Positions 7,046-43,519 of a DNA stretch of 64,000 nt are shown piece after piece (the stretch's first letter is position 1; each line of letters opens with the position of its first letter). Below the pieces are notes generated by a model. The model saw nothing but the letters and a program-made list of their open reading frames with translations. It searched no databases and had not been told where the DNA came from. The stretch is from Pontiella desulfatans. GTDB lineage: Bacteria; Verrucomicrobiota; Kiritimatiellia; Kiritimatiellales; Pontiellaceae. Location: positions 992,001-1,056,000 of the forward strand of contig NZ_CAAHFG010000003.1 in assembly GCF_900890425.1 (NCBI RefSeq), read 5' to 3'. Made by a program: the position numbers and the translations under genes.

Positions 7046-10000
7046 ATGCGAAAATCAGTATGTTTGCTTATGGTTATCGGCCTGTCGGTATATTCAGTAT
7101 CGGCACAGGTCATTTTTGATGCTGATTTCGAAGATGCTGCACTGATTAATGATCATGTTACATCCGCCAACCTGGATGCGGGAACGGCGGTCGGGTCATG
7201 GACCGTTATAGATGACCAGGAATCGGACATCCGCTCAGGCAGCGGCAACAAGGCGTTATTGGCCGATACGGGCACGTACAGCTTTGAGGCAAACTTTTCG
7301 GAGACCGCGGTTCTGACCAACAACGGGATAACAATTTCGCTGGATACTTACATGCGCCGCACCGGCGATGCTTCATCCAACGAGGGGAACCTCAAGCCGC
7401 AGAAAATTGTCGGGCTTGATTCCCATGGGTATGAGCTCTTCGATATCCGCATCAATGCCGGCATCTGGCATGCAAATGCACAGCGTTTAGGATTTGTGGA
7501 TTCACTCGGTGCCGAGCGCTATCTGGGCAGTTCCGGGGATGTGAACGTCTATTCGGTGGATACGCCGAACCCTTCCAAGTTCCAAACCTTGGAACTTACG
7601 CTGCACGAAACAATGATGGATATTTCCTACGACGGGGCCGTGCTGACCAACGGCATGGCCTATCGCAATTCCGGCATTTCGCATATCAGTAGTATCCGTC
7701 TGGCCGGCGTCAACAGCAGTACAGGCGCGTTTTATGACAACATTAGCGTCGCCGCGATTCAAACCAGTTCGAATACCGTTTGGCCGCGGGAAGGCTTTAT
7801 TCCGCACAACACGCAAAGCAACAACCTGATTCATGTCCGAACCGCCGATTTTGACGGTGTAGGTACCAAGGATTATGTGGTCGCCATGACCGTCGATGAA
7901 AAGCTCATTGCTTTTAACCGCCCGGTTGATATCGCCGATCCATCCGCCGACAACCGTCGCTGGCAGGTGGACCTGCCGAATTTTGCGATCATGATTGAGA
8001 CGGCGGATATCGATCAGAATAATGGACCGGAAGAAGTGTTGGTGCCCGGTACCGATGGTCATTTACGAATGTATTCCGAAGCCGGCACGCTGCGGGAGGA
8101 CTGGCCGGTCAGCGATGGCGCGCTCTACTGCGCCGGAGTTGGACAGAAGTCAAATGGCGACGCTCGGGTCATCACGGCTGGTGTTGACGGCGACCTTTAT
8201 TTCTATGATGAAACCGGAACGCAGATTGGAACCATTCGCCCGGACAATGTGGGTATTATTCGCCGTCTGGCCGTTGGAAACTTTGATGGAGTCGGCGGTG
8301 ATGAAGTCATGATCTTTTACAGCATGAAGGGTTATGATGCTTATCGCTATATCGAGATCTATGATCTGGACACACTCGCGCGGCCTGCCTATTGGGATCT
8401 CACCGAACCGATGGAAGATGATGTGGCCCGAATCAATGCAAGCCCGGGCATGGGGTGGACCGATAAGCAGACCGCCTGGGTCTACGATATGGATGGCGAC
8501 GGCGACGATGAGGTAGTGGCCAACTGGGGGGTACTGCATCCGGAAAACGGCGGTACCAACACCATCCTTTCGGCCGCGCTGCCGGAGGGAGAAAAACTGT
8601 ATCTTTCCGAATACGAAGATTTCGCGGAACCCACGCCTACAACGTATTATCTGCTACAGCAAGGCGTGCCCGGCAACTTCCACGACGGCCTGACCAATGC
8701 GGAAATGTTCACGCTCTATGGCGATGACCTGTATCTGGTGGATTATGATGTGACTCGCTCCGTTAATGCCGACCGGTTCCGCATCATCGACTACAGCTAT
8801 GCCCACACGCTCTATCACTTTACCGATGGCGCCCGGCTGGAAGATCGAGACGGCGGTCCAGATAAAATGGTGCTCGCCGGTCCCGCGCACGGTGATGACC
8901 ATTTTTATGTGGTGGATTTGTCCAATAATTTCTGGAAAGAGGATGCAAAACATATCGACGGCAACGGCGTGCTCGGCGCGGTGCGCGACACGCTGGATGA
9001 TCTGGAAGACGATATTGATGCCTTTAACGGAACCGTTGCGGAAGCCGGAAGGCCGATCTATTACATTAACTATTTTCGCTCCCACCTCGGCTGGGAGATG
9101 ACGCCTGCAGCTATTGAATTTCATGCCGACGATACGTTGGCTGCCGTGCAGGAGGCGCGCGACCGGTTGGGCGGAACACCCGGCTATGACCCCGAACGCG
9201 TCCGCTTTGTTTCCAGTATGTTCGGCACGAAAATCTGGGGCGAGGGGGTGCACTCGACCGATCCCGATGTTACGGCAGCGGGGGTTGAGGCATTTTGTGC
9301 GGCGTTGGCGCAGCGCGGGGTTCATTTCTGTGTATCCATCGGTCACCATGATGTGGTGCATATGAGCCCGGAAACCATGGCCGACTGCTTTGAGGCCTCG
9401 GTGGTCGATGGCGAATGCTATCTCATGGGGCTGACCGGCGAGCAGGGCGACTCCTCAATAACCGATACCTACATGCCGCACATGGATGCGGTGATTGCCC
9501 GTGCGGATACGCTTGCTATCGACCCGCCGCGGCTGGTGATGACCTCAAAAGGGCCGATTTTTTCAGGCATGAACCCCGAACAGGCATCTGCCTGGTGGCC
9601 GGCTTATAAAAAGGTTTTTACCCCCGGCATTGAATGCTCCAACAATACGCTGCCTGAATTTTCCTATGCGGAGCAGGTCGGCCTATGGCTCAATGGGTCT
9701 GTGGATGGATGGTGTTCCAGCCTGATCGGTGACAACCTGACACCTAACCGCATCGCGGAGTGGGGCGGGGTGCGGAACGGACACGTCGTGTTGCGCCATA
9801 TGCTTTCGCAGTATTCCCTCGGCGCGGATATCTTCCGCATCACCTCCATTGTGAATCAGGAAAACCCGCTCTATGAGCGCGGCGATACGGCCGATCCTGA
9901 ACTGGATCTGGCCAACCCTTATCGGCAGGGCGTTTGGAATTTTCTGAAAATCGTCGAAGCAGGGGTCTATCCCAATGGGCCTGATCGGAGTCAGCTCAAA

Positions 10001-11617
10001 GGCATCTCGCCCGTCGCCGCCTCGCTGCCTGCGCCGAACACCGACTCGCTGGCTCTGAATGCAATCAAGTCGGACTTTACAAAATACGCCACGCATGCGC
10101 GGGCGCAGACCTATGTACTCAACGGCCTGAGTGGCTGGGATGCCTATACAGAGGTTCCTGATTTCGATATTACCGCGATTCTACACAATACCAAACGACG
10201 CTGGGATAACCTGTTACCGACCTCGCCCTGCGGGTTTGTTCCGATTGTTCCGCACGCCTCGCGTGCTGAGACCGAGGCCCATCCCTGGTGCAACCGCGCC
10301 TACGAAACAGATGTCGATACCTGGGCGGAGTTCCAATCATTGGAAACCGCGCGAGACACGATCTCCGCCGAACTTATGGCGCAGCGCACCAACATGCTGT
10401 TTTATGTGGATGGCGAATGCTTCTGGCAGGTGACCGAAAACAGGAATGATCCCGACACCCTGTTCGCCCTCGCGATGGACTCCACGGTGCTGACACCGAC
10501 CGAGCGTACGGTGGAACTGATGAAGGGAGCTGCCGACGGGATTTGGGATGTTTACGATCAGTTGGGTTCCCAGGTTGTTCCGCTCGGAACATTGTCTTCC
10601 GGTTCCGATTCGGTGACACTCGCGATTCCTGCCGGTTCCGTTCGCATACTCGCTCTCAAAAAACGTGTTCCAATTTCAACTTCAGTGATGGGGATCGCCT
10701 GGGACGGCGGAACCGAGCCGTCGCTGGCCATTTACGGAATTGATGGACGCCTTGTTCCAAGCAACCAGGGGATTCATCCGAGTGGTGGGTCGCTGGATGG
10801 AACGTTTGGTCCCGATTTTGCGGGGGCATCAACGGGTGCGAACGGGGCCTATAAGGTGAAGGATTACGATGATCATGCGGCTTCGGGCTGGATCGGTGTG
10901 ACGATCACGAATAACACCGGATCAACCCTTCAGCTGGAAACCCTGCATTTTGATTATGGTCAATGGTACGTAGAGTCGCCGACCAACGTGGCCGCCTTTT
11001 ATCAATCGGGCGATCTCGCCGCAACGAACGGTACACCCCTCGGTGCCTTCTCCGCATCCACCCTCACCGGATGGGTGCAGGGGGACTATGATGATTTTTC
11101 GGTGGTCTTGACCAATCTCGCCGATTCCAGCCTTGCTCCCGGCGAGCACGCCGTCTTTGAGCTAAGGGCCACGGTGGGAACAACGGCGGCCGGAGGAATC
11201 GACAATGTGGCGATCGTTATTTCCGGCCTCGGGAATTTTGATGAGTGGGCGGCCAGCTTCGGGCTCTATGGATCCAATGCCTGGAACTCCGTCGACCTCG
11301 AACCGGATGGAATGGATAACTGGACCGAATACATCTTCGGCGGTGACCCGACCTCCGATGATGCATCCGCCATTTTTCCAAGGTCTGGAATGAATGGGGA
11401 CTGGCTCGAATATGTCCACCGGCGTCGCAGCGATTATCAGGCGCGCGGACTGGTCTACACAGTCGAAGCTTCAACAAATCTGCTTTCCAATGATTGGAAC
11501 ACCCATGGCGTTTCATATGTGGGTTCAGGCTCCATCGATGCCGAAATGGATTCCATTACCAACAGCATTTCCATCGAAGAACATCCGCAACAGTTTATTC
11601 GCCTTCGGGTTGAATAA
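7046..11617 (+). CDS. Giant secreted FG-GAP propeller/putative glycosidase
   Basis: 1523 residues with a signal peptide (MRKSVCLLMVIGLSVYSVSA). Residues 22-240 look like a jelly-roll module. Residues about 245-630 carry FG-GAP/VCBS-type repeats (ADFDGVGTKD, NFDGVGGDE, DMDGDGDDE) and should form a beta-propeller. Residues about 640-1200 are a large domain with barrel-like features (YYINYFRSHLGWEM, VSIGHHDVVHM, GWCSSLIGD) and several conserved-looking acidic, His and Trp residues; this is the likely catalytic part. Residues 1215-1395 are a recurrent module also found at 23270, 24816 and 27917. The C-terminus has the shared Asp-rich segment and FIRLRVE tail. A propeller followed by a catalytic domain recalls lambda-carrageenases (GH150), but I cannot confirm this. 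The other possibility is a new glycosidase family. No standard short-enzyme signature is visible. Confidence 0.8.
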   Translation: MRKSVCLLMVIGLSVYSVSAQVIFDADFEDAALINDHVTSANLDAGTAVGSWTVIDDQESDIRSGSGNKALLADTGTYSFEANFSETAVLTNNGITISLDTYMRRTGDASSNEGNLKPQKIVGLDSHGYELFDIRINAGIWHANAQRLGFVDSLGAERYLGSSGDVNVYSVDTPNPSKFQTLELTLHETMMDISYDGAVLTNGMAYRNSGISHISSIRLAGVNSSTGAFYDNISVAAIQTSSNTVWPREGFIPHNTQSNNLIHVRTADFDGVGTKDYVVAMTVDEKLIAFNRPVDIADPSADNRRWQVDLPNFAIMIETADIDQNNGPEEVLVPGTDGHLRMYSEAGTLREDWPVSDGALYCAGVGQKSNGDARVITAGVDGDLYFYDETGTQIGTIRPDNVGIIRRLAVGNFDGVGGDEVMIFYSMKGYDAYRYIEIYDLDTLARPAYWDLTEPMEDDVARINASPGMGWTDKQTAWVYDMDGDGDDEVVANWGVLHPENGGTNTILSAALPEGEKLYLSEYEDFAEPTPTTYYLLQQGVPGNFHDGLTNAEMFTLYGDDLYLVDYDVTRSVNADRFRIIDYSYAHTLYHFTDGARLEDRDGGPDKMVLAGPAHGDDHFYVVDLSNNFWKEDAKHIDGNGVLGAVRDTLDDLEDDIDAFNGTVAEAGRPIYYINYFRSHLGWEMTPAAIEFHADDTLAAVQEARDRLGGTPGYDPERVRFVSSMFGTKIWGEGVHSTDPDVTAAGVEAFCAALAQRGVHFCVSIGHHDVVHMSPETMADCFEASVVDGECYLMGLTGEQGDSSITDTYMPHMDAVIARADTLAIDPPRLVMTSKGPIFSGMNPEQASAWWPAYKKVFTPGIECSNNTLPEFSYAEQVGLWLNGSVDGWCSSLIGDNLTPNRIAEWGGVRNGHVVLRHMLSQYSLGADIFRITSIVNQENPLYERGDTADPELDLANPYRQGVWNFLKIVEAGVYPNGPDRSQLKGISPVAASLPAPNTDSLALNAIKSDFTKYATHARAQTYVLNGLSGWDAYTEVPDFDITAILHNTKRRWDNLLPTSPCGFVPIVPHASRAETEAHPWCNRAYETDVDTWAEFQSLETARDTISAELMAQRTNMLFYVDGECFWQVTENRNDPDTLFALAMDSTVLTPTERTVELMKGAADGIWDVYDQLGSQVVPLGTLSSGSDSVTLAIPAGSVRILALKKRVPISTSVMGIAWDGGTEPSLAIYGIDGRLVPSNQGIHPSGGSLDGTFGPDFAGASTGANGAYKVKDYDDHAASGWIGVTITNNTGSTLQLETLHFDYGQWYVESPTNVAAFYQSGDLAATNGTPLGAFSASTLTGWVQGDYDDFSVVLTNLADSSLAPGEHAVFELRATVGTTAAGGIDNVAIVISGLGNFDEWAASFGLYGSNAWNSVDLEPDGMDNWTEYIFGGDPTSDDASAIFPRSGMNGDWLEYVHRRRSDYQARGLVYTVEASTNLLSNDWNTHGVSYVGSGSIDAEMDSITNSISIEEHPQQFIRLRVE

Positions 11618-11705: not shown

Positions 11706-13190
11706 ATGATCAGATTTAAAATGACTTCAGATAAAAAAGTTTTAATCGGGCTGGTTGCCGGAGCCTGCATGGCTTCGGCCGCTCAGACGTATAACACCAG
11801 TCATGCGTCGATTGCATCCTATGATGTGCCGGCCTGGTACAGCGAGGGCAAGCTGGGGGTGTTTATGCACCTGAGCGCCTTTTCGGTGCCGGCGTTCAAG
11901 AATGAATGGTATGCCTCCAATATGTATTATGCCGATGATATTCCGAACCTGAGACATCCGGAATACCGTAAGTCGTTCCGGGATCATCATGAAAAGACCT
12001 ACGGCTCCCTGAAGGACTTCGGCTATAAGGATTTTATCCCGATGCTGACCCTGGAAAAGTTCGATGCCGACTACTACGCAGAGCTGATAAAGAAATCGGG
12101 AGCGGCCTATTTTGCGGCCCCGGCGATACATCATGATGGTTTTGCCATGTGGGATTCAAAGGTCATCGACTGGAACGCGGCAAAGATGGGCCCGAAGCGC
12201 GATGTGGTTGGGGAACTGACCAAAGCGATGCGTAAAAAAGGCATCAAAACCGGGGTATCCACGCACTATGGTCGCCATTGGAAATACTACACCTTCCGCC
12301 CTGAGTTCGATACCTGGGACCTTGCCAATGAAGGGCTTTACGGGGCCCGCCGCGGCGACACGGATCCGCCGCGTCCGGAAGATGCGCTGAATTGGGAACA
12401 GGTGATGAACGAGCTCGTCGATACCTATCAGCCGGATTATATCTTCGTCGATGGGGGGGTATGCGATGCGCGCGGTGAATACAAGAAAGAGTATTTCCGA
12501 GACGCCATGTACCGTGTTGTGGCTCGATATTACAATAAGAGCGCGGATTGGGATAAAGAGGTGGTCCTTTCCTGGAAGCGCGACGCCATGAAGAAGGGCG
12601 AGGCGGTGTATGATTCTGAAGGTTCCCTTGAAGATGGCATTCCGGAGCGCCCCTGGCAGGCGCATTTCACGGTAAATGGAAGCTGGGGATATACCGGAGA
12701 AAAACCGGGATGGCCGGCGGATAAAATACTGCGTGGGTTTGTGGATATCATCAGCCGCAATGGAAACCTGCTGCTGAATATCGGCCCGCGCCCGGATGGA
12801 AGTCTGGATGAAGGGCAGGAACAGGTACTGCTTGAAATCGGCCGGTGGCTGCAAATCAATGGTGAAGGCATTACGGGTTCCAGACCTTGGAAAATCTATG
12901 GTTCAGGAAAGCTGAACAGTCTCGCAGCAGGGTCCCCGGATTCAAATAAAAACGACAAAGACGCAGTGCGCTACACCCAAAAGGACGGAGCCCTTTACGC
13001 CTGGTTCGCGACTTGGCCGGAAGACGGCAAGGTCACGCTGCCGCAGGCGGGAAGTTTTAATCCCCAAACGATCAAGCCCTTGGGCGCTAACGGTGAACTG
13101 AACTTCGTAAAAGAGGGCCATGATCTGATCGTCGAGCTACCGGCCAAGCCGTTTGGCCGGTATGTATGGGGGCTTAAGCTTACGCACTAG
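11706..13190 (+). CDS. Alpha-L-fucosidase, GH29
   Basis: 494 residues with a signal peptide (VLIGLVAGACMASA). The GH29 barrel is recognisable from GVFMHLSAF, AIHHDGFAMW, HYGRHW and the VDGG motif near residue 249, whose Asp is the nucleophile candidate, and from NLLLNIGPRPDG at the end of the catalytic domain. A short beta-rich C-terminal domain closes the protein. The role is retaining hydrolysis of terminal alpha-L-fucose from oligosaccharides. AGGGAAA precedes the ATG. It differs considerably from the two GH29 domains found in fusions in this window, so it probably attacks another linkage or position. It is followed by a terminator. Confidence 0.9.
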   Translation: MIRFKMTSDKKVLIGLVAGACMASAAQTYNTSHASIASYDVPAWYSEGKLGVFMHLSAFSVPAFKNEWYASNMYYADDIPNLRHPEYRKSFRDHHEKTYGSLKDFGYKDFIPMLTLEKFDADYYAELIKKSGAAYFAAPAIHHDGFAMWDSKVIDWNAAKMGPKRDVVGELTKAMRKKGIKTGVSTHYGRHWKYYTFRPEFDTWDLANEGLYGARRGDTDPPRPEDALNWEQVMNELVDTYQPDYIFVDGGVCDARGEYKKEYFRDAMYRVVARYYNKSADWDKEVVLSWKRDAMKKGEAVYDSEGSLEDGIPERPWQAHFTVNGSWGYTGEKPGWPADKILRGFVDIISRNGNLLLNIGPRPDGSLDEGQEQVLLEIGRWLQINGEGITGSRPWKIYGSGKLNSLAAGSPDSNKNDKDAVRYTQKDGALYAWFATWPEDGKVTLPQAGSFNPQTIKPLGANGELNFVKEGHDLIVELPAKPFGRYVWGLKLTH

Positions 13191-13383: not shown

Positions 13384-15255
13384 ATGATGAAGAATAGATC
13401 AAAGAGATCAGATGGCGTCATGAAGGGTGCACCCAGCGGATTTATGGTCAGTCTGCTGGTCCATGCCGCCGCGTTTACGTTGGCCGGGCTTCTTGTGGTC
13501 TTTAACGTGGTCCAAAAGGAGGAGAAAAAATTTGTTCCGCCCAAACCGGTTGATCGGCCGAAAATGAAGCTGAAAAAACCGAAGGTAAAAATAAAGAAAA
13601 CGGCCAAGCCCAAATCCACCACACGGATTGTCACGAAAGTGAAGCAGGCGAACATGCCCGACATTCAATTGCCCGAAATGAGCGGGATGGGCGGGGAAGG
13701 GTTCGAAATCGGCGGGTTTGATATTATGCCGGATCTCGGTGAGCTGTCCCTGCTGGGCAGCGATCAGACCATTGGCAATGACTTAGAGGGCACGTTCTAC
13801 GATTTTAAGCGGAACCGGAGCGGCGGTTATATCTCCATGGATGGAGAAAACTGGCAGCGGGGCGTTCATAACTTCCTGCGCAGGGGATGGAGGACCTCCA
13901 ACCTTTCGAAATACTATCGTGCACCCAAGAAAATTTATACGACCTGCCTGGTGATCCCGCCCGTGCTTTCGTCCATCGCACCTTCGGCATTTGGCGATAA
14001 AGATGCCTCGGGTGTGTATTGGATGGTTCACTACAAAGGGCAGATTGCCCATAACAAAAAAATCACCTTTCGTTTTCATGGCATAGGCGATGGCTTTATT
14101 GCTGTACGGGTGAATGGCGAAATGGTGTTGCTGACCGAGTGGACGCATGTGGATACGGGCTTATCCAATATGGAAGGTGCCATAACCGGAAACCTATGGG
14201 AGTCGGATTCCGCCGATTCGCGAAAATATGTTATGGGGAATTCCCGTGCCGTGGTCGGCAGCTGGATTACGCTGGAGCCGGGAGAGGCGCAGGACATCGA
14301 TATTGCCATCGGGGACCAGGGCGGGCAGGCCGCAGCCATGCTGGCCGTTGAAGTCGAGGGCGTTGAGTATGAAAAGAGCAGTCAGGGTGGCCCGATTCTT
14401 CCCGCGTTTAAAACGGAAAAAATTTCACGGGACCTGATGGATATCATCTACAAGGATCTGGTGGAGGAGGAGGTTTCATTGACGGCCGGACCGGTCTTCA
14501 ATGATTTTGGCTCCTACGAAGCCGTTCCTGAAGAAACCGTGACGGAAGAAAAGGTTCCAATGGTTGAACCTGCACCACCTGTTGAAATTTCTCCGATGCG
14601 CACCTGGGCATTTGAAAAGCCGTTGGAAGCCGAGTTGGTAACCGTGCTCGGTAGAGAAGTCGTGCTCAAAAACACAAAAGGTAAAACCATCAAGGTGCCA
14701 ACGAATCGATTTAATGAATCAGATATGGAATACATTGAGTTATCAAGGCCGCCAAAGTTTGACATTAATTTTACGCGAAATAATCAGCAGCGGTTGTTTA
14801 AGAATCGGATGGAAGTGGGCGAACCGCGGCCTCCGCAGACGCTGAGCCGATACGGTGTGCGGATCAAACAGACCGGAAGCGGTTCGTATAATCACGAACT
14901 TAAGGTTGAACTGTTTGCGATCGGTCAGGAACGCCTGGGCGATCGGTATATACTGTTTGATCGCCAGACCACCCGCTTTATACCCACCGTTGAAAATGGA
15001 CGATCCCATGAATTTCTCAGTGAACGTACCGTGGTGATGGACAACTATGAGGTGGATGCGGAACCGCGTGGTGAGCGATATGCCGGTTATCTGGTAACGA
15101 TTACGGACAAGCGGGGAGAAGTGATTGCAGTGGATACATCTAACCAGTGGCTGCTTGATCATATCGATAATCTGAAGAAACAGAAGCCGGGGAACTATAT
15201 GGATAAGGCCTGCACCCGTGTCTTTCCGACCCGACCTCCGAAAACCCGGTATTAG
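13384..15255 (+). CDS. TonB-like membrane-anchored PA14/SHD1-domain protein
   Basis: 623 residues. A single N-terminal membrane segment containing SLLVHAAAFTLAGLLVVF is of the TonB energy-transducer style, and it is followed by a Lys/Pro-rich stretch (residues about 45-85). Residues about 135-330 resemble a PA14-like beta-barrel (GTFYDFKRNRSGG, RFHGIGDGFIAVRVNGE). Residues 407-457 match the SLA1 homology/SHD1 pattern common in PVC bacteria (TWAFEKPLEAELV, VVLKNTKGKTIKVP). The last ~165 residues are unassigned. The usual TonB C-terminal domain is not seen, so true energy transduction is doubtful; an inner-membrane-anchored periplasmic carbohydrate-binding or scaffold protein is equally possible. 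It heads a unit with the esterase-fucosidase fusion (43 bp gap). The function is not established. Confidence 0.75.
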   Translation: MMKNRSKRSDGVMKGAPSGFMVSLLVHAAAFTLAGLLVVFNVVQKEEKKFVPPKPVDRPKMKLKKPKVKIKKTAKPKSTTRIVTKVKQANMPDIQLPEMSGMGGEGFEIGGFDIMPDLGELSLLGSDQTIGNDLEGTFYDFKRNRSGGYISMDGENWQRGVHNFLRRGWRTSNLSKYYRAPKKIYTTCLVIPPVLSSIAPSAFGDKDASGVYWMVHYKGQIAHNKKITFRFHGIGDGFIAVRVNGEMVLLTEWTHVDTGLSNMEGAITGNLWESDSADSRKYVMGNSRAVVGSWITLEPGEAQDIDIAIGDQGGQAAAMLAVEVEGVEYEKSSQGGPILPAFKTEKISRDLMDIIYKDLVEEEVSLTAGPVFNDFGSYEAVPEETVTEEKVPMVEPAPPVEISPMRTWAFEKPLEAELVTVLGREVVLKNTKGKTIKVPTNRFNESDMEYIELSRPPKFDINFTRNNQQRLFKNRMEVGEPRPPQTLSRYGVRIKQTGSGSYNHELKVELFAIGQERLGDRYILFDRQTTRFIPTVENGRSHEFLSERTVVMDNYEVDAEPRGERYAGYLVTITDKRGEVIAVDTSNQWLLDHIDNLKKQKPGNYMDKACTRVFPTRPPKTRY

Positions 15256-15298
15256 TCGGTCGGGTGTATATATAGTCTATTTGAATGGAGTTGTATTT

Positions 15299-17599
15299 AT
15301 GAAGAAAACGTTCGTCAGTATATTGTTTTTATTTGGAGCTGTGCTTGGCATGTATGCCAAAGAGCAAGTGCCTATGCCAGACCGGAGTGTGGTGTATAAA
15401 ACGGTCGACGATGTGTCGTTGAAGCTGCACATTTTTAATCCGGAAGGGCACAGGCCATCGGACATGCATCCGGCGATCATCTTCTTTCATGGCGGGGGCT
15501 GGAACGGTGGCGGGTATACGCAGTTTTCCGGACAGTGCGATTATTTTTCCTCGCGGGGCATGGTTGCCATAACGGCGGAATACCGCACGGCTCAGAAAAA
15601 CGGAACCTCACCGCAGGAATGTGTGAAGGATGCCAAATCCGCACTGCGATGGGTTCGCGCTCATGCAGCCGAACTCGGGATCGATCCCAACCGGCTGGCT
15701 GCAGGCGGCGGTTCGGCGGGCGGGCATCTGGCGGCTGCGACTGCGATGCTGGATGGATATAATGAAGAGGGGGAAGATACATCGATCTCTTGTGTTCCGA
15801 GCGCCCTCGTACTGTTCAATCCCGTGGCGGATAATGGTCCCGGTGGGTTTGGGCATGATCGGGTGAAGGCCTACTGGGAGGATTTTTCTCCGCTGCATAA
15901 TATCCACAAAGATGCGCCGCCGACGATTATTCTTACCGGATCGAAGGATACGGCGTTCAAGCCTGCGAGCGCAAAAGCCTACAAAGAAAAGATGGAAGCG
16001 TTGGGCCGTCGCTGTGATCTGAGGATTTATGAAGGCCAACCCCATGCATTTTTTAATCGGGGCCATAGTGAGGAAATGCATTTTCAAACTATGTTGGATG
16101 CGGATCAGTTTTTGGTTTCGCTCGGCTATCTTCACGGTAAAGCACCGGCTCTTCACGACCTGATGGGTGAAGAATCAAATGTCGTCGATGACAACAAGGT
16201 CATCGCGGATTTGGCGGCGAAGATGGAGGGCGGTGTGAGTGAAGACGGCCTGCATTGGCGTCTTAAGCTGGCAGATCCGCTGCCGATGCCAAAGGGCGGC
16301 GGCTGGTTTGAGGATGCAGGTCTGGGCTTGTTTATGCATTGGGGGCCGGCCTCCGCGTGGTATGGATCGCCCTGGGTGATGCGCCGTCCGGCCGGTGAAG
16401 GGGTTGATGGGCCGATGGCGGTGGCGAAGGACTATTACGAGACTTCGATGCCAAAATTCACCGCAGCTGCCTATGATCCGGAACTCTGGATGCAGGCGGC
16501 GAGTAAAGCGGGATTTAAATATGCCGTGCTGACCTCAAAACATCATGACGGCTACACACTCTGGCCGAGCGACCATACCGATCTCGGCACGCAGACCTAT
16601 TTGAACGGTCGTGATTTACTGAAACCCTATGCCGATGCCGTGCGCAATAATGGTATGAAGGTCGGGTTCTATTATTCCGGTGTGGACTGGTGGCTGGACC
16701 GCGATTACATGAACTACAGCTGGGAAAAGGAAAACGGCTGGAATTTTGAAGGAAAGTCTTTTGATGCAACAACCCTCGAACCGCTGCCGATGGAAATCGT
16801 TGAGCAGAAGAAACAAATCGCGTTTGAGGTGATGGAGCGGTATCGCCCCGATCTGTGGTGGTGGGATTCCGGCCTGCCGGTCTCGCTGGAAGAAACGGCG
16901 CTGAAATATAATCCGGACATGCTCTTTAACAACCGTGGCAATTTTCATCATGGAGGTGAGATGAAGGGGACCTATCCCGGTGCGCACTATGTGACCCCCG
17001 AAAATTTCCACATGGTTGAATGGGAGAGCATGAAAAAATTGCAGGCGCTTGGCCGAAAATGGGAAGTCTGCATGAATTTCAATCATGGCAAGGGCTGGTT
17101 TTATGAAGGCCGCACCGGAGACAGCGAAAAAGCCGGTGGATTGGATGGAATTATTTTTGCACTGGCCCGCGTGCGCTGCTGGGGAGGTAATATGCTGTTG
17201 AACATTAAGCCGCGCGAAGATGGAACCCTTCCGGAGGCCAATTATGATGCTTTTGAAAAAATGGCGCGCTGGATGGCCTGGGGCGAAGTTTCGATGTTTG
17301 ATGTGGAGGGTACCCATTTCCCGGAACAGTCCAACGTGCCCATCACGTCCTCCAGGGATGGCAAGATCTGGTATCTGCATGCGCGGCCCGGCGAATCACA
17401 GTGGCAGCAAGGCGCGTTTTATACCCACTGTGAACCGGGTAAACCCATCCGTGTGAGCAATGTGCCGGAGGTAAAGTCGGTCAGGCTGCTGCGCACCGGG
17501 GAGCCGGTGACTTATACCTATGAAAATAGAACCTTGTTTATTCCAAACCCCGATGCCGGTCCCGACGGTCTTCATGAAGTGGTAGAACTTAAGTTCTGA
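15299..17599 (+). CDS. Carbohydrate esterase-alpha-L-fucosidase (GH29) fusion
   Basis: About 766 residues. The start at ATG 15299 gives a signal peptide (KKTFVSILFLFGAVLGMYA); an earlier in-frame ATG at 15218 would overlap the previous gene. Residues about 20-290 are an alpha/beta hydrolase of the acetyl-esterase/lipase type with the oxyanion HGGGW, catalytic Ser in GGGSAGGH, and Asp and His candidates in SKDTAFKP and GQPHAFF. Residues about 330-766 are a GH29 domain (GLGLFMHWGPAS, LTSKHHDGYTLW, nucleophile candidate in DLWWWDSGLP), very close to that of the fusion gene at the window start. The inferred role is removal of an acetyl or similar acyl group and of the fucose that carried or neighboured it. 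The order of action and the acyl group are not known. Confidence 0.9.
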   Translation: MKKTFVSILFLFGAVLGMYAKEQVPMPDRSVVYKTVDDVSLKLHIFNPEGHRPSDMHPAIIFFHGGGWNGGGYTQFSGQCDYFSSRGMVAITAEYRTAQKNGTSPQECVKDAKSALRWVRAHAAELGIDPNRLAAGGGSAGGHLAAATAMLDGYNEEGEDTSISCVPSALVLFNPVADNGPGGFGHDRVKAYWEDFSPLHNIHKDAPPTIILTGSKDTAFKPASAKAYKEKMEALGRRCDLRIYEGQPHAFFNRGHSEEMHFQTMLDADQFLVSLGYLHGKAPALHDLMGEESNVVDDNKVIADLAAKMEGGVSEDGLHWRLKLADPLPMPKGGGWFEDAGLGLFMHWGPASAWYGSPWVMRRPAGEGVDGPMAVAKDYYETSMPKFTAAAYDPELWMQAASKAGFKYAVLTSKHHDGYTLWPSDHTDLGTQTYLNGRDLLKPYADAVRNNGMKVGFYYSGVDWWLDRDYMNYSWEKENGWNFEGKSFDATTLEPLPMEIVEQKKQIAFEVMERYRPDLWWWDSGLPVSLEETALKYNPDMLFNNRGNFHHGGEMKGTYPGAHYVTPENFHMVEWESMKKLQALGRKWEVCMNFNHGKGWFYEGRTGDSEKAGGLDGIIFALARVRCWGGNMLLNIKPREDGTLPEANYDAFEKMARWMAWGEVSMFDVEGTHFPEQSNVPITSSRDGKIWYLHARPGESQWQQGAFYTHCEPGKPIRVSNVPEVKSVRLLRTGEPVTYTYENRTLFIPNPDAGPDGLHEVVELKF

Positions 17600-17618
17600 T
17601 ATGAAAGGGAGAAAGAGG

Positions 17619-18254
17619 ATGAAGAATTGGATCTTTGCCGTGCAGCTGTGTTCAGGTTTGCTCGGGGTAGCATGTGCCGGGGCGAACCTGTTGTCCGATG
17701 CACAGTTTTCGGGGGGAAAGGGAACGTATCCGGATGAAACAACATCGCCGTGGTTCACCGCTGGAGAGAAGGGCGGATGGGCGACGCTGATAGATTCCGA
17801 ACGATCTTTTGATAACCATGGGCAATCGCTGAAGTTTAATCGTTGGCGTGGCGATATTAACGTCTTGCAGAATACGGGGCATGTGATTCAGGCGGGTCAT
17901 GATTATCATATATCCCTATGGATAATGACTGATGAGCCGAGTGACGATCCCGCCCATACCGCAAAACCGGGTATTTTTGTGACGGTAGCATCTGCGAAGC
18001 AGCCGGATGGTCCGTTTCATTTCAGGAAACAGTTTTTCTGGGAGATCACCACCTCAAAACATGGGGTGTGGGAGCGTATTGAGGGATCCATTGACGCCGC
18101 TGATCTTGAAGAATGGATTGGTGAGTGTATTCAGTTGCGTATTGTGAAAAAGTCGCTGAATTCATCCCATGCGATCTGGGTGGATGATATTCAGCTACAC
18201 TCGTTGTCGAATGGAGAAGAAGTTGAGGTCAGTGCAGGACTTCTTTCGTATTAG
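17619..18254 (+). CDS. Stand-alone secreted CBM4_9-like protein
   Basis: 211 residues from ATG 17619, which follows a purine-rich GGGAGAAAGAGG and starts directly with a signal peptide (KNWIFAVQLCSGLLGVACA). An in-frame ATG at 17601 is also possible. The whole mature protein is one jelly-roll module (NLLSDAQFS, LKFNRWRGD, GVWERIEG, IWVDDIQL). It corresponds to the N-terminal modules of the proteins at 2397, 23270 and 24816. No catalytic domain is present, so the likely role is binding of a glycan or of another protein in the degradation complex. It lies 19 bp after the esterase-fucosidase fusion, probably in the same transcript. Confidence 0.75.
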   Translation: MKNWIFAVQLCSGLLGVACAGANLLSDAQFSGGKGTYPDETTSPWFTAGEKGGWATLIDSERSFDNHGQSLKFNRWRGDINVLQNTGHVIQAGHDYHISLWIMTDEPSDDPAHTAKPGIFVTVASAKQPDGPFHFRKQFFWEITTSKHGVWERIEGSIDAADLEEWIGECIQLRIVKKSLNSSHAIWVDDIQLHSLSNGEEVEVSAGLLSY

Positions 18255-23171: not shown

Positions 23172-23269
23172 ACGAATCTGCATCATAAGACCAACCTATA
23201 GATAAGTTTGAGCAAAGTTAGACGCTGGGGTCTGAAGTGTGTTGTTCCATGATGAAAAAAGGATGGGTT

Positions 23270-24730
23270 ATGAAAATGCTGAAAAAATGTGCGATAGTTT
23301 TAGGTTTTATTTCTCTGGCAGGAATGGTTCAGGCTGCGGTGGTCAGTAATCTGCTGCAAAATGCCGATTTTGAAGCATTGGACGGAGCCGCCAACGAGCC
23401 GAATGACGGCGATACGCCCTGGAATGCCATAGAGGTTCAGCCTTGGATTGTTGCAGGCCGGATAGATGAAGCCCATAGCGGAACCCAGGCGGTTAAGGTG
23501 GTGAACTATAATAAAGGTACCATCACCCAGAATACGGGCGTGCTGCTTGAGTCGAATACGGCCTATGAGGCCTCGGCCTGGATTCTCACAGGCGGTCTTG
23601 AACACGCATCTCAAACCGATCCTCCAGAACTCACCATCTCTTTATATGCTACAACAAACGGGAATCCGGTTGGACCTTATGTTTATCAGGCGGGCTTCTT
23701 TTTCGATCAGGCCAATACGACCAACGATACATGGGAGAAAGTTACGGGTATCCTTGAGTCATCAAGTTCGGCACTTCAGGACGTTGTCGGTGAATATATT
23801 CAGCTGCGTTTTATTAAAACTGACAGTGGTGATTCGGGAGACGTCAGTTCGTATGAATTGTTCATCGATGATGCGGAATTCGGAGTGTATTCGCCGGAAG
23901 CCCCGCCGGTCGGTTTGCTGCTCGGGTACCATACGGGCATTGGAACCAATTATGACTATGCGGTCACCGGCGTAGAAGGATCTCTTTTCGGAGCAAGTTT
24001 TGACGGAAGCGTAATTGAAGCTTCTGCGGGATCATCCGATGGAACATATGGTACGTTATCCGGAGCTTCCGTGCTGCGGACCGGGTACAAGGTTCGGGAA
24101 GGGACTACAAATACAAACAGTCGGGTGGATGTCCGGATCAAGAATAATACAGGCAGTCCGCTCCAGCTCGAGTCAATCAGTTTTGATTATGGACGGATGT
24201 ATGAAGCCAGTCCTCAGGACATCACACTCAGCTATGCCTATGGAAATCTCAATGAGATGGACAATACCGAAATTTTCACAGCAACGAACCTGGCAGTGAC
24301 CGGCCAATACGGTGACTACCATGACTTCGACATTCCGTTGACCAATCTGAATGATGTTGTTCTTGGAGATGGTCAGCAGGCTACGTTCCGTCTCTCCATC
24401 GATAATGCAGCGGGACCCTGGGACAGAGGTGCGTTCGACAATATCGCTATCATGGGCATCTCGTCTACGGAAGCATGGTTTGTTGCTACCGAACCATCCG
24501 CTGCGGACCAGGTCCGGCTGATCGTTTATGCATCGGGTGATCTCAGCCAGATCTATCTGGTAGGCCGTGATAGTCTTTCTGATGGCAATTGGGCTTATAC
24601 GGGGCATTCTGACGATGGAACGAGCTCCTATGTGATCACCAATCTGACTCATTCAACGACCGACGGTACTAATCGTTTCATTTATGTGGATGGAGCAGAA
24701 GCGAAGAATTTTTACGGATTGGAATATTAA
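23270..24730 (+). CDS. Secreted CBM-like protein with recurrent module
   Basis: About 486 residues from ATG 23270, chosen because AAGGATGG precedes it and the signal peptide (LKKCAIVLGFISLAGMVQA) begins at once; in-frame ATGs at 23237 and 23249 are possible. Residues about 20-210 are a CBM4_9-like jelly roll (NLLQNADFE, GEYIQLRF, LFIDDAEF). Residues about 215-398 are the recurrent module (SSDGTYG, SFDYGRMY, YHDFDIPL, FDNIAIMG). The last ~80 residues are a divergent version of the C-terminal tail. No catalytic domain is seen; glycan binding or presentation at the cell surface is the plausible role. It forms a single-gene unit between the 19-bp motif and a terminator. Confidence 0.78.
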   Translation: MKMLKKCAIVLGFISLAGMVQAAVVSNLLQNADFEALDGAANEPNDGDTPWNAIEVQPWIVAGRIDEAHSGTQAVKVVNYNKGTITQNTGVLLESNTAYEASAWILTGGLEHASQTDPPELTISLYATTNGNPVGPYVYQAGFFFDQANTTNDTWEKVTGILESSSSALQDVVGEYIQLRFIKTDSGDSGDVSSYELFIDDAEFGVYSPEAPPVGLLLGYHTGIGTNYDYAVTGVEGSLFGASFDGSVIEASAGSSDGTYGTLSGASVLRTGYKVREGTTNTNSRVDVRIKNNTGSPLQLESISFDYGRMYEASPQDITLSYAYGNLNEMDNTEIFTATNLAVTGQYGDYHDFDIPLTNLNDVVLGDGQQATFRLSIDNAAGPWDRGAFDNIAIMGISSTEAWFVATEPSAADQVRLIVYASGDLSQIYLVGRDSLSDGNWAYTGHSDDGTSSYVITNLTHSTTDGTNRFIYVDGAEAKNFYGLEY

Positions 24731-27916: not shown

Positions 27917-30820
27917 ATGAAGAGAGGTATAATAGCATTGTTATGCGCTGTATTACTGGCCGGTGTTGGAGCCGCCCATGGGCAGGTGTTCGTGTATGAC
28001 TCGGAGAACAATGATTATGTCACCGCGAATAAGGATTTTAGTGCCACACCAACCTCATGGCAGAATTATGAATCCGCACCGGCAAGCGACTATACGGGAC
28101 CTTCGTTTTCGTATGCCGGCGTGAACTCCGATTCAGTCCAACTTAACCAAGCGAGACTTTTGGCGAATGATCGGCTGCAAATGAACGATAATACCAATTT
28201 CCACTATATGGTCGCGTTTGATTTTCCGGCATCCGCGGTGAAAACCATCACGACGCAAGGGTCTACATTTGGTGTCGGGGTGGCGGGTGACGATACCTAC
28301 CTGATCCTGCATGACAGTACGCAAGGTCCTGCGGATGGGTGGTACGCCACCCTGCTGCACTCGAGAACGACGGTCAGCACATTTGAATATACCGTAGAAG
28401 TTGCGGATGCCACGTGGTATGCGTTCACTCCATCCACCGTTAATGGTACGGTTCCGCTCGGAACCATCGGTTCCGTGGTTGATGTATCGATCATCACTGG
28501 CGGAACGTTTGATGAGGCCGGGTACTATGCGGATGTTTATGACAATAATGCCGGTGCTATCAACCATTACCTCTGGTCCTTGGTGGTCTATGAACCTTCC
28601 GCGGATGCTTCGCTTGAACTCGGGGAATTATTGCCGCTATATGTGGAAGATGCATCCGGTGTAGTGACCGGAACGGTTGCGGTTTCCTACGTTGAAGGAA
28701 TTCCGGCCACCAACGTAACGATCTCCGCAGTTTCCGTTGTGGATCAGACTCATCCGGGCGCGTTCGCCAATATAACAGCTTTACCGCTGAATCTCATCGC
28801 CCCGGCTCCGGCAACGGAAGACGTCTCTATTGAATTCGACAACTCAACAGCGGGGCTTTCAAACGGCCAAACCGCCACCGGCGTGGTGCAGATTATTTGG
28901 AACGAAGTCGGTTCAGCTTCCAGTTCCACTTCCAGTGTGCCGGTCAGTGCGACCCGTCTGGCGATTAACCAAGGCAACACCATCGCGATTTTCGACCATA
29001 CCGGTTCAACTGCAAATCCCGCTCTTCAGGGTTTGGTGACAAGGATCTCCAATGGGTACGGTACGGTAACCGGCCAGGGATCGACCGACGGCAGCTATGG
29101 AACGCTTCCGGGCGATGCACGCACCGATGGCGGTTGCTACCGGGTTTCGTTGACCTACCCGGTTGTCTCGGTGGCCATCACCAACGAGACGGGATTCGAC
29201 TGCACCTTCGATTCGCTCCATTTCGATGCCGCGAAACAGTATGCCAAGGGACTGAAAAAAGTGGAGGTATCGATTTCGGGCGATGTGACCAGCGGTCCGC
29301 TTTTCACAAACACCGTGGATCTGACCCAGTTCGCCGGCACGGTCGGTGACTATGACGACTTCGACATCGACCTGACCGGTCTGGCCGACCGCACCCTCGC
29401 GCATGGCGAAAGTGCTTTGATCGAATTCACCTTCTTCGACGGCGACCCGTCCAACTCCAATGCGGTTAGTTGCATCGACAATATTGCGCTGCTGGGGTCC
29501 GGTTCGAACGGTGCCGGCCTGACGAGGGTGCCCGGCGGATGGATCAGCATGGACATTTCCGGACTCGATCTGGGCTCCAGCCAACTGATCGAAATGTTCT
29601 ACACCGAAGGCGATTCGGCAACCAACATCGTGATAACCGGTGTATCGTTTGCAGACGAAACGCATCCGGGATCGTTCAGTTTTTCAGGCTCCCTTCCGGT
29701 GGAGCTCGCAACGGCGGAAACGACCAACACCATTGTCACGCTGGTATTCGATAACACCGTGGCTAATGTCGCAGCCGGCACCTCCGCCTCCGCGGTGATG
29801 GAGCTCACGTGGAATGAAAAAGGGCTGCCGTCCCGTGTCTTCGAGATCAACGTGTATGCCTGGCGTCCGGCCGATGTGCCGTCCACGACTAATGTGATCG
29901 CTCTGCTTGATACGGAATTCCTGACTGCAGATGCAGCGGTGAACGGCGTCAAGGCCGTTATGAGTGGAGCCGGAAGTCTCCAATACAATGAACGGGGCTC
30001 GGAAGACGGAACCTATGGTTCCATCTCGTCCAATGTGTTGGTTGCCCCGGTCACCACATCCATGTGGCAGCTCAACAATATAAATAACTCGGCCATGCTG
30101 ACGTTCACCAACACGACCGTGGCCGATACTGTACTTTCGTCGCTCCACTTCGACATCGGCCGCTGGTATGCCGCTTCCGCAGACGGTTTCACGCTCTCCG
30201 TTTCCGGAGATGTGACTGCGGATCCGGCGTTGCTGTACTCCAGTCTGACGGTGCTGGGCTTCCAGAACTATGACTTCGATGATCACGATGTTGATCTGAC
30301 TGGTCTGGCGGATCATACTCTGGCGGCCGGTGAGTTCGTGACCTTCACCGTCACCTTGGATCCCAAGCCAGAGTCACCGTTCAACAATACCTGGATCGAC
30401 AATGTCGCATTGCTGGGCACCTTCGATGTATTCGGCGGATGGGCGAACGATGAAGGGCTGACCAAAGGCGTCAATGACGGTCCGTATGATAATCCGGATG
30501 GTGACGGCAAGGACAACTTCATGGAATTCGCGACCGGCGGCGATCCGCTGGTGGCGGACGGAGCGGCCGCGGCCATGTGGCAGGCTGAAGACGGCGGAAC
30601 CAACTGGCTCTACCATGTGCATGGACAGCGACAGGATGATGCCAGCCTGACCTACGGTGTAGGTACCAAAGAAAATCTTCAATACGATCCGTCTTGGGAT
30701 AGCGGCGATGTTGAACAGGTCGGTGCTTTAACAGGTCCCGGTCTCTGGAAGACCATCACCAACCGAACCGATACAGGCGCGACCGCTAAATTCATCGGTC
30801 TGGAGGTTCAGCAAAACTAA
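27917..30820 (+). CDS. Large secreted protein with duplicated Ig-like and recurrent modules
   Basis: 967 residues with a signal peptide (KRGIIALLCAVLLAGVGAAHG). An N-terminal beta domain (about 22-235) is followed by an Ig-like module, the recurrent module (about 356-529; STDGSYG, DDFDIDL, CIDNIALLG), a second Ig-like module (about 545-655), and a second recurrent module (661-835; SEDGTYG, DFDDHDVDL, WIDNVALLG). It ends with the Asp-rich segment (NPDGDGKDNFMEF) and the common tail. The two Ig-plus-recurrent-module units look like an internal duplication. No enzyme signature is visible; it is probably a surface or secreted binding protein. It is a single-gene unit with a strong terminator. Confidence 0.78.
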   Translation: MKRGIIALLCAVLLAGVGAAHGQVFVYDSENNDYVTANKDFSATPTSWQNYESAPASDYTGPSFSYAGVNSDSVQLNQARLLANDRLQMNDNTNFHYMVAFDFPASAVKTITTQGSTFGVGVAGDDTYLILHDSTQGPADGWYATLLHSRTTVSTFEYTVEVADATWYAFTPSTVNGTVPLGTIGSVVDVSIITGGTFDEAGYYADVYDNNAGAINHYLWSLVVYEPSADASLELGELLPLYVEDASGVVTGTVAVSYVEGIPATNVTISAVSVVDQTHPGAFANITALPLNLIAPAPATEDVSIEFDNSTAGLSNGQTATGVVQIIWNEVGSASSSTSSVPVSATRLAINQGNTIAIFDHTGSTANPALQGLVTRISNGYGTVTGQGSTDGSYGTLPGDARTDGGCYRVSLTYPVVSVAITNETGFDCTFDSLHFDAAKQYAKGLKKVEVSISGDVTSGPLFTNTVDLTQFAGTVGDYDDFDIDLTGLADRTLAHGESALIEFTFFDGDPSNSNAVSCIDNIALLGSGSNGAGLTRVPGGWISMDISGLDLGSSQLIEMFYTEGDSATNIVITGVSFADETHPGSFSFSGSLPVELATAETTNTIVTLVFDNTVANVAAGTSASAVMELTWNEKGLPSRVFEINVYAWRPADVPSTTNVIALLDTEFLTADAAVNGVKAVMSGAGSLQYNERGSEDGTYGSISSNVLVAPVTTSMWQLNNINNSAMLTFTNTTVADTVLSSLHFDIGRWYAASADGFTLSVSGDVTADPALLYSSLTVLGFQNYDFDDHDVDLTGLADHTLAAGEFVTFTVTLDPKPESPFNNTWIDNVALLGTFDVFGGWANDEGLTKGVNDGPYDNPDGDGKDNFMEFATGGDPLVADGAAAAMWQAEDGGTNWLYHVHGQRQDDASLTYGVGTKENLQYDPSWDSGDVEQVGALTGPGLWKTITNRTDTGATAKFIGLEVQQN

Positions 30821-31049: not shown

Positions 31050-33479
31050 ATGAAAACATGGATGATGATGGCGATACTATCGCTGGGTGCTTCAGCTCTG
31101 GCTGAGCGCAGTACGATCAATTTTAATGAAGATTGGCGATTTGCCCGTTTCGGGGCCATGCCGGATGGTTCGGAAAGGGCAGAACCTGAGGGGTTGGAAA
31201 GCGCATCGCTCGATGATTCTCAATGGCGGTCACTGAATGTGCCGCATGATTGGGGGATTGAAGGGCCGTTCCGCGATGATCTGCCGAACCGTACCGGTAA
31301 ACTGCCGTGGGCGGGTATTGGCTGGTATCGGAAAACGGTGGATGCACCGGTCTCTGATGCCGGGAAAAAAATCTTTATCGATTTTGACGGAGCCATGTCT
31401 GATTCGAAGGTGTGGCTGAATGGCGAATATGTGGGGGAATGGCCCTATGGCTATTCTTCCTTCCGCCTCGACCTTTCCAATCATTGGAAACCCGGCGAAA
31501 AGAATACGATTGCCGTTCGGCTCGACAATAAACCGGAATCTTCGCGCTGGTATCCGGGAGGCGGGATCTATCGCAATGTCCGCCTTGTGAAAACCGAGCC
31601 GGTGCACGTGGATCATTGGGGCATTTTTGTAACGACGCCGGATGTTTCGAAAAAAGAAGCAACTATTTCGATTAAAACCGAGGTGGCGGGGGCAGATGAC
31701 CATACCATTATTCTTCAAGAAATTGTAGAAGCCGGCGTGCAGGGAGAAGGGGCTCATCTTCAAATCAAGGTGGCCAATCCCAAATTATGGAGTCTGGAAT
31801 CGCCAACGCTGTATACGTTAAAAACCACCGTTAAACAAAATGGGATCGTGGTGGATGTGGTTGAAACCTCATTCGGAATTCGTACCATTGAATATACGTC
31901 GGAAGGTTTTTTCCTGAACGGAAAAAAGGTGCGTATGAACGGGGTTTGTCAGCATCATGACTTAGGGCCACTGGGATCTGCGATCAACACACGTGCGATT
32001 GAACGGCAGATTGAGATTCTTCAGGAGATGGGGGTGAACGCCATTCGTACCGCCCATAACCCGCCGGCACCCGAGCTTTTGGATTTGTGCGACCGCATGG
32101 GCATTCTGGTTCAGGTGGAAGCATTTGACTGCTGGGAAAAGAGCAAAGCACCCAACGATTATGCCCGCCACTTTCCGGAATGGCATGAGAAGGATCTGCG
32201 CGCGATGATTAAGCGCGATCGGAACCATGCTTCCGTGGTGATGTGGAGTACCGGAAATGAAACCCGGGAAATGAAGAAAAAGGAAGATGCCCCGGTGTCG
32301 CAGATGTTAACGGATATTGCAAAGTCGGAGGACAGCACCCGTCCAATTACGTATGGCTGTAATGCCCCCAATGCCGGATGGAACGGCTTCCAGAAAACGA
32401 CGGATCTTTTCGGGTATAACTACAAACCGCATCTTTATCAGAAGTTCCGGAACGTGAATCCCATGCAACCGTTCTATGGCAGCGAAACCGCTTCGACGGT
32501 CAGCTCCCGTGGGGAATACTTTTTCCCGGTATCCGATGAAAAACATCTGGGACAGGGCGGTGATTTTCAGGTGAGTTCCTACGACCTGACTGCACCGCCG
32601 TGGGCTAACAATCCTGATATTGAATTTGCGGCGCAGGATAAATACCCGTGGGTATTCGGCGAGTTTGTCTGGACCGGGTTTGACTATATTGGAGAACCAA
32701 CACCGTATAATCAGGATAAAACCAATCTGCTGAATTTTTCTGATCCGGCAGAACGGAAACGCATGGAGGAAGAGCTGGAGCGTCTGGGCGGTAATATTCC
32801 ACCGCGCAGTTCCTATTTCGGCATTGTGGATCTGTGTGGATTTAAGAAAGACCGCTTCTATATCTATCAGGCCCGCTGGCGACCGGAGCTACCCATGGCG
32901 CATATTCTTCCGCATTGGAACTGGCCGGAGCGTATCGGCGAAGTTACGCCGGTGCATGTCTATACATCGGGCGATGAAGCGGAACTGTTTTTGAATGGAA
33001 AATCGCTCGGACGGAAGAGGAAGGGCGAATTTGAATACCGCCTGCGCTGGGATGATGTGGTGTATGAACCCGGCGAAGTGAAGGTGGTTGCGTATAAGGA
33101 TGGAAAAATCTGGGCTGAGGATCTTCAGAAAACCACCGGCAATTCAGCGAAACTGGAACTGGTAGCCGATCGGTCGGAAATCGCGGCGGACGGGCAGGAT
33201 CTTTCGTTTATAACGGTCCGCGTGGTGGATGCTGAAGGGCTCGTCGTTCCGCGTTCTCATAATTCAGTACAATTTAAAATTGAAGGCCCGGGCGAAATTA
33301 TTGCCGTGGGCAATGGCGATCCAACGAGCCATGAGTCGTTCCATGCTCTGGAACGCAGGGTCTTTAATGGTTTGGCACTGGTGGTCGTTCGTTCCGTGAA
33401 GGGCGAAAGCGGTTCGGTGGTGGTGAAGGCTGACTCGGACGGGTTGGCTGCAGGAGAGATTGAAATCGAGGTAAAATGA
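31050..33479 (+). CDS. GH2 beta-galactosidase-like enzyme
   Basis: 809 residues with a signal peptide (KTWMMMAILSLGASALA). GH2 layout: sugar-binding jelly roll (NEDWRF, VPHDWGIEGPF, GWYRK, DGAMSDSKVWLNG), Ig-like domain, and a barrel with acid/base Glu in MWSTGNE and nucleophile Glu in VFGEFVWTGFDY. Two Ig-like C-terminal domains follow, including an invasin/DUF4982-like piece (AELFLNGKSLGRK). The expected role is exo-hydrolysis of beta-linked galactose, or another beta-glycoside, in the periplasm. First gene of an operon; its last bases (ATGA) overlap the next start. Confidence 0.9.
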   Translation: MKTWMMMAILSLGASALAERSTINFNEDWRFARFGAMPDGSERAEPEGLESASLDDSQWRSLNVPHDWGIEGPFRDDLPNRTGKLPWAGIGWYRKTVDAPVSDAGKKIFIDFDGAMSDSKVWLNGEYVGEWPYGYSSFRLDLSNHWKPGEKNTIAVRLDNKPESSRWYPGGGIYRNVRLVKTEPVHVDHWGIFVTTPDVSKKEATISIKTEVAGADDHTIILQEIVEAGVQGEGAHLQIKVANPKLWSLESPTLYTLKTTVKQNGIVVDVVETSFGIRTIEYTSEGFFLNGKKVRMNGVCQHHDLGPLGSAINTRAIERQIEILQEMGVNAIRTAHNPPAPELLDLCDRMGILVQVEAFDCWEKSKAPNDYARHFPEWHEKDLRAMIKRDRNHASVVMWSTGNETREMKKKEDAPVSQMLTDIAKSEDSTRPITYGCNAPNAGWNGFQKTTDLFGYNYKPHLYQKFRNVNPMQPFYGSETASTVSSRGEYFFPVSDEKHLGQGGDFQVSSYDLTAPPWANNPDIEFAAQDKYPWVFGEFVWTGFDYIGEPTPYNQDKTNLLNFSDPAERKRMEEELERLGGNIPPRSSYFGIVDLCGFKKDRFYIYQARWRPELPMAHILPHWNWPERIGEVTPVHVYTSGDEAELFLNGKSLGRKRKGEFEYRLRWDDVVYEPGEVKVVAYKDGKIWAEDLQKTTGNSAKLELVADRSEIAADGQDLSFITVRVVDAEGLVVPRSHNSVQFKIEGPGEIIAVGNGDPTSHESFHALERRVFNGLALVVVRSVKGESGSVVVKADSDGLAAGEIEIEVK

Positions 33480-37224: not shown

Positions 37225-37232
37225 GCTCTGGT

Positions 37233-42673: not shown

Positions 42674-43519
42674 TCATGTTCTGACTGCTCCTTCCATGAA
42701 TACCTCGGCGGGGGTGCGTTTGTCCAGAGCGCTGTGCTTCCTCTCGTGGTTGTAATATTTAAAATAGCTGTCAAGGCCCCGATGCAACGCATGCCCGTCG
42801 GCATAGCATGCGGGATAGATTTTCTCATACTTCACCGACCACCACAGTCGTTCGATGAATACGTTGTCCAACGCCCGGCCTCGCCCGTCCATGCTGATGG
42901 TGATGTTCTCGTTTAACAGGACACCGGTGAAGGCGTTCGAGGTGAACTGGCTTCCTTGGTCGGTGTTGAATATCTCCGGATTCCCCTGCGTCAGCGCACG
43001 CTCCAGCGCATCAACGCAGAACGTGCTCTCCATGGTGCTTGAGAGCTCCCAGGCGAGCACATAGCGGCTGTACCAGTCGATTACGGCGGTCAGGTACATG
43101 TATCCATGCCGCATCGGGATGTAGGTGATGTCCGTACTCCAAACCTGGTTCACCCGTTCGATGTCCACATTGCGCAGCAAATAAGGGTAGATCTTGTGCC
43201 TCGGGGCGGGCTTGCTCGTGTGCGGACCGGGCGTGATGGCCTGAATCCCCATCAGCTGCATGAGGCGGGCGACCCGCTTGTGATTGACATCATAGTCTTG
43301 ATCACGCAACCAGTCCGTCATGCGTGGATAGCCGAACTCCGGATGCCGGAGATACTGCTCGTCGATCAAACGCATCAGAAGCAGGTTCTCCGGCGTTTCC
43401 GGGGCGGGGTCGTAGTAGAAGCCCGATCTGGGGACGCCTGCGAGCCTACACTGCCGCCGAACCGAATAATCGGTGCCGGGCTCCACCCAGCTGCGGCGCG
43501 TTGAAAGCGGCAGGCTCAT
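42674..43519 (-). CDS. IS3-family transposase, OrfB (DDE integrase core)
   Basis: About 281 residues from the ATG at 43519. HTH_21-like N-terminus (RRQCRLAGVPRSGFYY), then the integrase core with DDE residues in WSTDITYIPM, FNTDQGSQFTS and FIERLWWSVKYE. It is normally made as an OrfAB fusion by -1 slippage on the A7 run near 43525; the same frame continues upstream in overlap with orfA. The fusion is the active transposase that moves the element by copy-out/paste-in. Confidence 0.92.
   Translation of the reverse strand: MSLPLSTRRSWVEPGTDYSVRRQCRLAGVPRSGFYYDPAPETPENLLLMRLIDEQYLRHPEFGYPRMTDWLRDQDYDVNHKRVARLMQLMGIQAITPGPHTSKPAPRHKIYPYLLRNVDIERVNQVWSTDITYIPMRHGYMYLTAVIDWYSRYVLAWELSSTMESTFCVDALERALTQGNPEIFNTDQGSQFTSNAFTGVLLNENITISMDGRGRALDNVFIERLWWSVKYEKIYPACYADGHALHRGLDSYFKYYNHERKHSALDKRTPAEVFMEGAVRT

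Follow-up and report, generated by a model that had tools for sequence, protein, structure and literature searches.

The locus analyzed here, a 64-kb window of the Pontiella desulfatans genome (C3:992001-1056000, hereafter the window), raises the question of which gene product begins the breakdown of its target polysaccharide, and which polysaccharide that is. A preliminary description made from the letters alone singled out the largest protein, presented as an FG-GAP propeller followed by an unclassified, catalytic-looking domain of about 560 residues. The ORF listing bears out its size: the ATG-initiated ORF at 7046-11617 (plus strand), the largest of the window, encodes 1523 residues. It is coding and conserved, given that Pontiellaceae bacterium B12227 encodes a full-length ortholog with a core 91% identical to that of the window protein and that homologs exist in Bacteroidota. 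On sequence grounds, the protein is a member of the GH150 superfamily, within which it belongs to a deep, separate clade, here called W. GH150 enzymes act on lambda-carrageenan only, ahead of GH110, and the lambda pathway of P. distincta proceeds from GH150 to sulfatases, GH110 and GH2 (PMC12549532).

Several domains make up the window protein, all encoded on the plus strand. A predicted signal peptide (residues 1-20, 7046-7105; MRKSVCLLMVIGLSVYSVSA) was recognized by eye, and the protein is presumably secreted. The N-terminal domain (residues 21-238, 7106-7759) had been missed in the preliminary description, as had two C-terminal modules (residues ~1225-1390 and 1394-1523); among other W proteins, this N-terminal domain is seen only in the B12227 ortholog and in the paralog upstream, and it weakly matches two further proteins of the same genome. 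The propeller was correctly recognized and spans residues 245-636 (7778-8953), with a Pfam Beta-prop_CGLA match, hhalign alignment to GH150, Foldseek matches to WD40 and other propellers, and FG-GAP-like DxDGDG motifs visible by eye. The domain of about 560 residues is likewise a separate unit (residues ~640-1215), predicted to comprise a (beta/alpha)8 barrel (residues ~666-950, 9041-9895) and the C-terminal beta-sandwich of the core (residues 1119-1206, 10400-10663), located where CGLA_C is found in GH150. The accessory module at residues 1225-1390 (10718-11215) is, by phmmer, also carried by neighbouring secreted proteins. In Bacteroidota orthologs, the two C-terminal modules are absent or swapped for a T9SS tail, and because these orthologs have a sorting tail at this place, the last module (residues 1394-1523, 11225-11614) may serve Pontiella for sorting or anchoring. 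This module has 103 matches in the genome, mostly within large ORFs.

Two Pfam lambda-carrageenase models match the window protein above their gathering cut-offs, and the domain is therefore not unclassified. CGLA_M (PF25290) scores 47.2 bits against a cut-off of 27 (E 2.5e-12), while Beta-prop_CGLA (PF25292) is marginal at 28.7 bits against 26.8 (E 1.2e-6); orthologs score 36-38 bits with Beta-prop_CGLA, and a Bacteroidota ortholog matches CGLA_M with E 8.6e-20. The third model, CGLA_C (PF25291), is detected in CglA, one canonical GH150 of the same genome and two intermediates, and gives nothing at E<=1 with the window protein, its paralog and two orthologs. The hhalign alignment of the clade W profile with that of six canonical GH150 proteins, headed by CglA of Pseudoalteromonas carrageenovora, a characterised enzyme, extends over 840 columns (probability 99.9, E 1.4e-32). 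Domain order is identical across W, the intermediates and canonical GH150. The resemblance to GH150 lambda-carrageenase suggested earlier was thus right and understated, as Pfam and hhalign make homology secure over the entire propeller-barrel-sandwich core. Other searches contributed little: PDB sequences gave nothing useful and contain no solved GH150 chain that we found, NCBIfam gave chance matches only, and viral contigs held no relative of the window protein. Fucoidanase families GH107 and GH168 had no match in Pfam or NCBIfam, libraries that possibly lack models for them.

Phylogenetic analysis places W (14 rows) and canonical GH150 (19 rows) in two monophyletic groups with support 100/100 and about 20% identity between them, the window protein lying outside the clade of characterised lambda-carrageenases. 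When GH150-like intermediates (L074-L078) are added to the tree, both groups stay intact and are bridged by the intermediates, whose exact placement is unsure; branches are long. Uncharacterised intermediates (L003, L014, L076, L077, L078) share the core residues and domain order of W, belong in the tree to neither W nor canonical GH150, and in two cases keep the HGND motif discussed below. The earlier suggestion of a new family is a fair one in view of this distinct clade, its low identity and its altered set of active-site motifs. The 8.66-Mb genome itself encodes two canonical GH150 proteins on C4, one intermediate on C5 and four W proteins, namely that of the window and those at C3:981967, C3:961367 and C1:680337.

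A scan of a collection of 84,980 species genomes returned 11 W loci, in Pontiellaceae and in marine Bacteroidota (Labilibacter, Carboxylicivirga, Algibacter and two Bacteroidales bins). The W proteins found so far are confined to Kiritimatiellota/Verrucomicrobiota and a few Bacteroidota of marine origin; as the scan was seeded with short peptides, it may have missed more divergent members. Genomes with clear members are rare: 1 among the 393 of the Labilibacter order, and about 3 among the 388 of the phylum to which the window belongs. The Bacteroidota loci include close relatives, which amount to few independent cases.

Structure prediction, from alignments 11-12 sequences deep, supports an enzyme-like fold for the domain. 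The AlphaFold2 model of residues 640-1215, of modest quality (pTM 0.72, pLDDT 61), has eight strands alternating with helices (671-675, 719-726, 760-765, 793-797, 830-834, 858-864, 890-894 and 929-933), followed by a beta-sandwich; pLDDT is mostly 70-96 through strand 4 and lower and uneven after it, and the stretch 980-1095 is unreliable. Both motifs quoted in the preliminary description are present, YYINYF as strand 1 and VSIGHHDVVHM as strand 3. Foldseek matches to the barrel are mainly TIM-barrel glycoside hydrolases of families GH98, GH140, GH30, GH5 and GH27. GH98, which comprises endo-beta-galactosidases and endoxylanases, is the most frequent of these among the top matches, at TM-scores of 0.3-0.4 and about 10% identity, a likeness that may reflect convergence or a poor model; the window protein has no Pfam match to GH98, and the two are alike in fold only. 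With TM-scores this low, Foldseek speaks for the class of fold without pointing to any one clan, and a clan link to GH98, though considered, is not claimed. A model of the full core, propeller included, was poor (pLDDT 53.6) and failed in part, and its Foldseek matches reflect the propeller alone.

Comparison with CglA (WP_104644226, L045:14920-17748; numbering of the 942-residue protein) divides the putative active site into a shared and a changed part. In CglA, the propeller is followed by the middle barrel and the C-terminal sandwich, as in W, and CglA shares K568, E598, D631, R637, D752 and R763 with W. Residue counts are taken from the alignment that includes the intermediates. The window protein residues K835 after strand 5 (9548-9550; CglA K568), D896 after strand 7 (9731-9733; D631), R902 (R637), D1041 (10166-10168; D752) and R1052 (R763) are each conserved in 14/14 W and 19/19 GH150 sequences, and E863 in strand 6 (9632-9634; E598) in 13/14 and 19/19. 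This K, E, D, R, D, R core is also present in the intermediates. E799 after strand 4 (9440-9442), found in all 14 W sequences, is matched to CglA E533 by profile alignment across a short insertion; an apparent loss of the E533 equivalent in W, read from the first alignment at residue 798, was withdrawn on this basis. In the barrel, the conserved residues sit at strands 3, 5, 6 and 7 or immediately after them.

The changed part consists of CglA D506, E599, R627 and W572, which lambda-carrageenases keep and W has lost. D506, E599 and R627 are invariant in the 19 canonical GH150 proteins, whereas D506 and E599 are replaced in all 14 W sequences and N505 is lost in 12 and kept in 2. H767 after strand 3 (9344-9346) corresponds to CglA H503, a position occupied by H or K, and the N-D that follows it in HGND is lost. 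At 19% identity, W differs from CglA in the replacement of HGND and of the second Glu of EE, in the undetected CGLA_C, and, for the window protein, in the extra N- and C-terminal modules and different gene neighbours. Because W shares the conserved cleft only in part, it sets residues required throughout the superfamily apart from those tied to lambda-carrageenan. A 2025 study of lambda-carrageenan degradation was unable to crystallise GH150 and did not name its catalytic residues (PMC12549532), and for this reason candidates are put forward here: CglA E533, K568, E598 and D631 are proposed as shared catalytic residues of the superfamily, and conservation patterns further suggest that HGND and the second Glu of EE may be tied to lambda-carrageenan. 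Were HGND catalytic in GH150, its absence from W would count against the same chemistry there. The tandem paralog at C3:981967-986667 (L033:3967-8667), which ends some 5 kb ahead of the window and is 85% identical in the core, has Gly in place of the strand-6 Glu (E863) and lacks one residue at strand 5. It is possibly an inactive copy, and activity is accordingly not guaranteed in every W protein.

The gene neighbourhood of W differs between phyla in part. In the window, a GH29 gene directly follows the W gene (11706-13190, plus strand), an esterase-GH29 fusion lies at 15218-17599 and a GH29-sulfatase fusion at 36-2327, so that GH29 genes flank it on both sides, with a GH95 gene upstream. Fucosidases adjoin W genes mainly in Pontiella. 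A GH2 gene (31050-33479, plus strand) has relatives near W genes in Pontiellaceae, and a GH50-like gene upstream at C3:952204 keeps both catalytic-Glu motifs. The S1_19-type sulfatase at 37221-38834 (plus strand) has an exo-4S kappa-carrageenan sulfatase as its closest solved relative (2.6e-104) and is 57-58% identical to sulfatases adjoining W genes in Bacteroidota; another sulfatase from this cluster (53148-54464, plus strand) is 38-39% identical to the W-adjoining S1_19 copy in Labilibacter and Carboxylicivirga. These two genes lie about 26 and 42 kb from the W gene, and only in Bacteroidota are S1_19-type genes adjacent to W or near it. The metallophosphatase-LamG protein at 33476-35356 has 38-39% identical counterparts adjoining W genes in Bacteroidota and is a conserved partner of these genes. 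The Bacteroidota W loci share two sulfatase families, one being S1_19 (E about 1e-100 to iota/kappa-carrageenan 4-sulfatases), along with a GH50-like protein (5e-63), GH136-like beta-helix proteins, the metallophosphatase-LamG protein and an esterase, sometimes fused to GH43, that is related to the GH29-fused esterase of the window.

Together, these observations point to a secreted GH150-superfamily glycoside hydrolase that is, somewhat more probably than not, an endo-beta-galactanase acting on a 4-sulfated galactan distinct from lambda-carrageenan. A carrageenan- or agaran-like galactan, possibly bearing L-sugars, is the likeliest substrate, since residues invariant in lambda-carrageenases are lost and the gene neighbours include 4-sulfatases and no GH110. 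S1_19 enzymes take the 4-sulfate off galactose in kappa/iota-carrageenan (PMC6923384), and lambda-carrageenan carries 2- and 2,6-sulfates (PMC12549532) and no 4-sulfate, which favours a 4-sulfated polymer. In the proposed mechanism, the propeller and the barrel with its C-terminal sandwich would enclose a cleft like the one modelled for GH150 and hold the polymer chain between propeller and barrel; the strand-end acids E799, E863 and D896 would then, with K835, hydrolyse a beta-galactosidic bond inside the chain, giving endo cleavage. The role foreseen in the preliminary description, that of an endo-acting enzyme starting polymer breakdown, is plausible. We hold more tentatively, at somewhat below an even chance, that W is a new GH family or the first GH150 subfamily of new specificity, that it initiates degradation of a sulfated galactan with no known endo-enzyme, and that the comparison fixes E533, K568, E598 and D631 of CglA, with their W counterparts, as catalytic. 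If W does cut another sulfated galactan, it would fill the missing first step in the loci of Pontiella, Carboxylicivirga, Labilibacter and Algibacter.

The full-length homology and shared core residues would also fit an ordinary, merely diverged lambda-carrageenase that cuts the same polymer as CglA. We regard this as quite unlikely, considering the identity of about 20%, the long branch and the replacement of three residues invariant in canonical GH150. Moreover, canonical GH150 is already present in the genome as two genes adjoining GH110 genes (PF23763; C4:960971 and C4:974796), and GH110, found once more on C2, is absent from C3 and from the surroundings of C1:680k. Nor is GH110 near W in five other W-bearing genomes, four of which carry it elsewhere and the fifth not at all. 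Less probable again is that the protein descends from a GH150 enzyme but has no catalytic function and binds substrate or acts as a scaffold. The loss of HGND agrees with such a role, and the substitution and deletion in the tandem paralog indicate that inactive copies may occur in the clade, yet E799, K835, D896, R902 and D1041 are invariant, and E863 all but so, across two phyla.

The choice of polymer is weighed against a fucose-containing sulfated substrate, fucoidan or fucogalactan, in step with the surrounding GH29 and GH95 genes. These genes fit such polymers and, with the reported growth of P. desulfatans on several fucoidans (PMC7356697), count against the galactan reading. The conserved neighbours in Bacteroidota are S1_19, GH50-like, GH136-like, GH43 and GH2 proteins, with no GH29 among those annotated. 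GH29 and GH95 enzymes could remove L-fucose or L-galactose. A fucoidan-type polymer is not favoured because the neighbours best conserved across phyla are carrageenan-type S1_19 sulfatases, GH50-like and GH2 proteins and esterases, and it is judged unlikely; fucoidan as a substrate deduced from the GH29 genes alone was set aside, as GH29 is not among these neighbours. A 4-sulfated galactan is thus retained as the preferred substrate of W.

Three further genes of the window (27917-30820, 23237-24730 and 17601-18254) have no Pfam match, and their relatives directly adjoin W genes in other Pontiellaceae, making them candidate new enzymes. The product of 17601-18254 has 217 residues, compared with about 1000 in its relatives. 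The sulfatase-rich region is interrupted by an integrase-type transposase gene (42674-43666) and an AbiEii-type gene (44236-45156), both on the minus strand.
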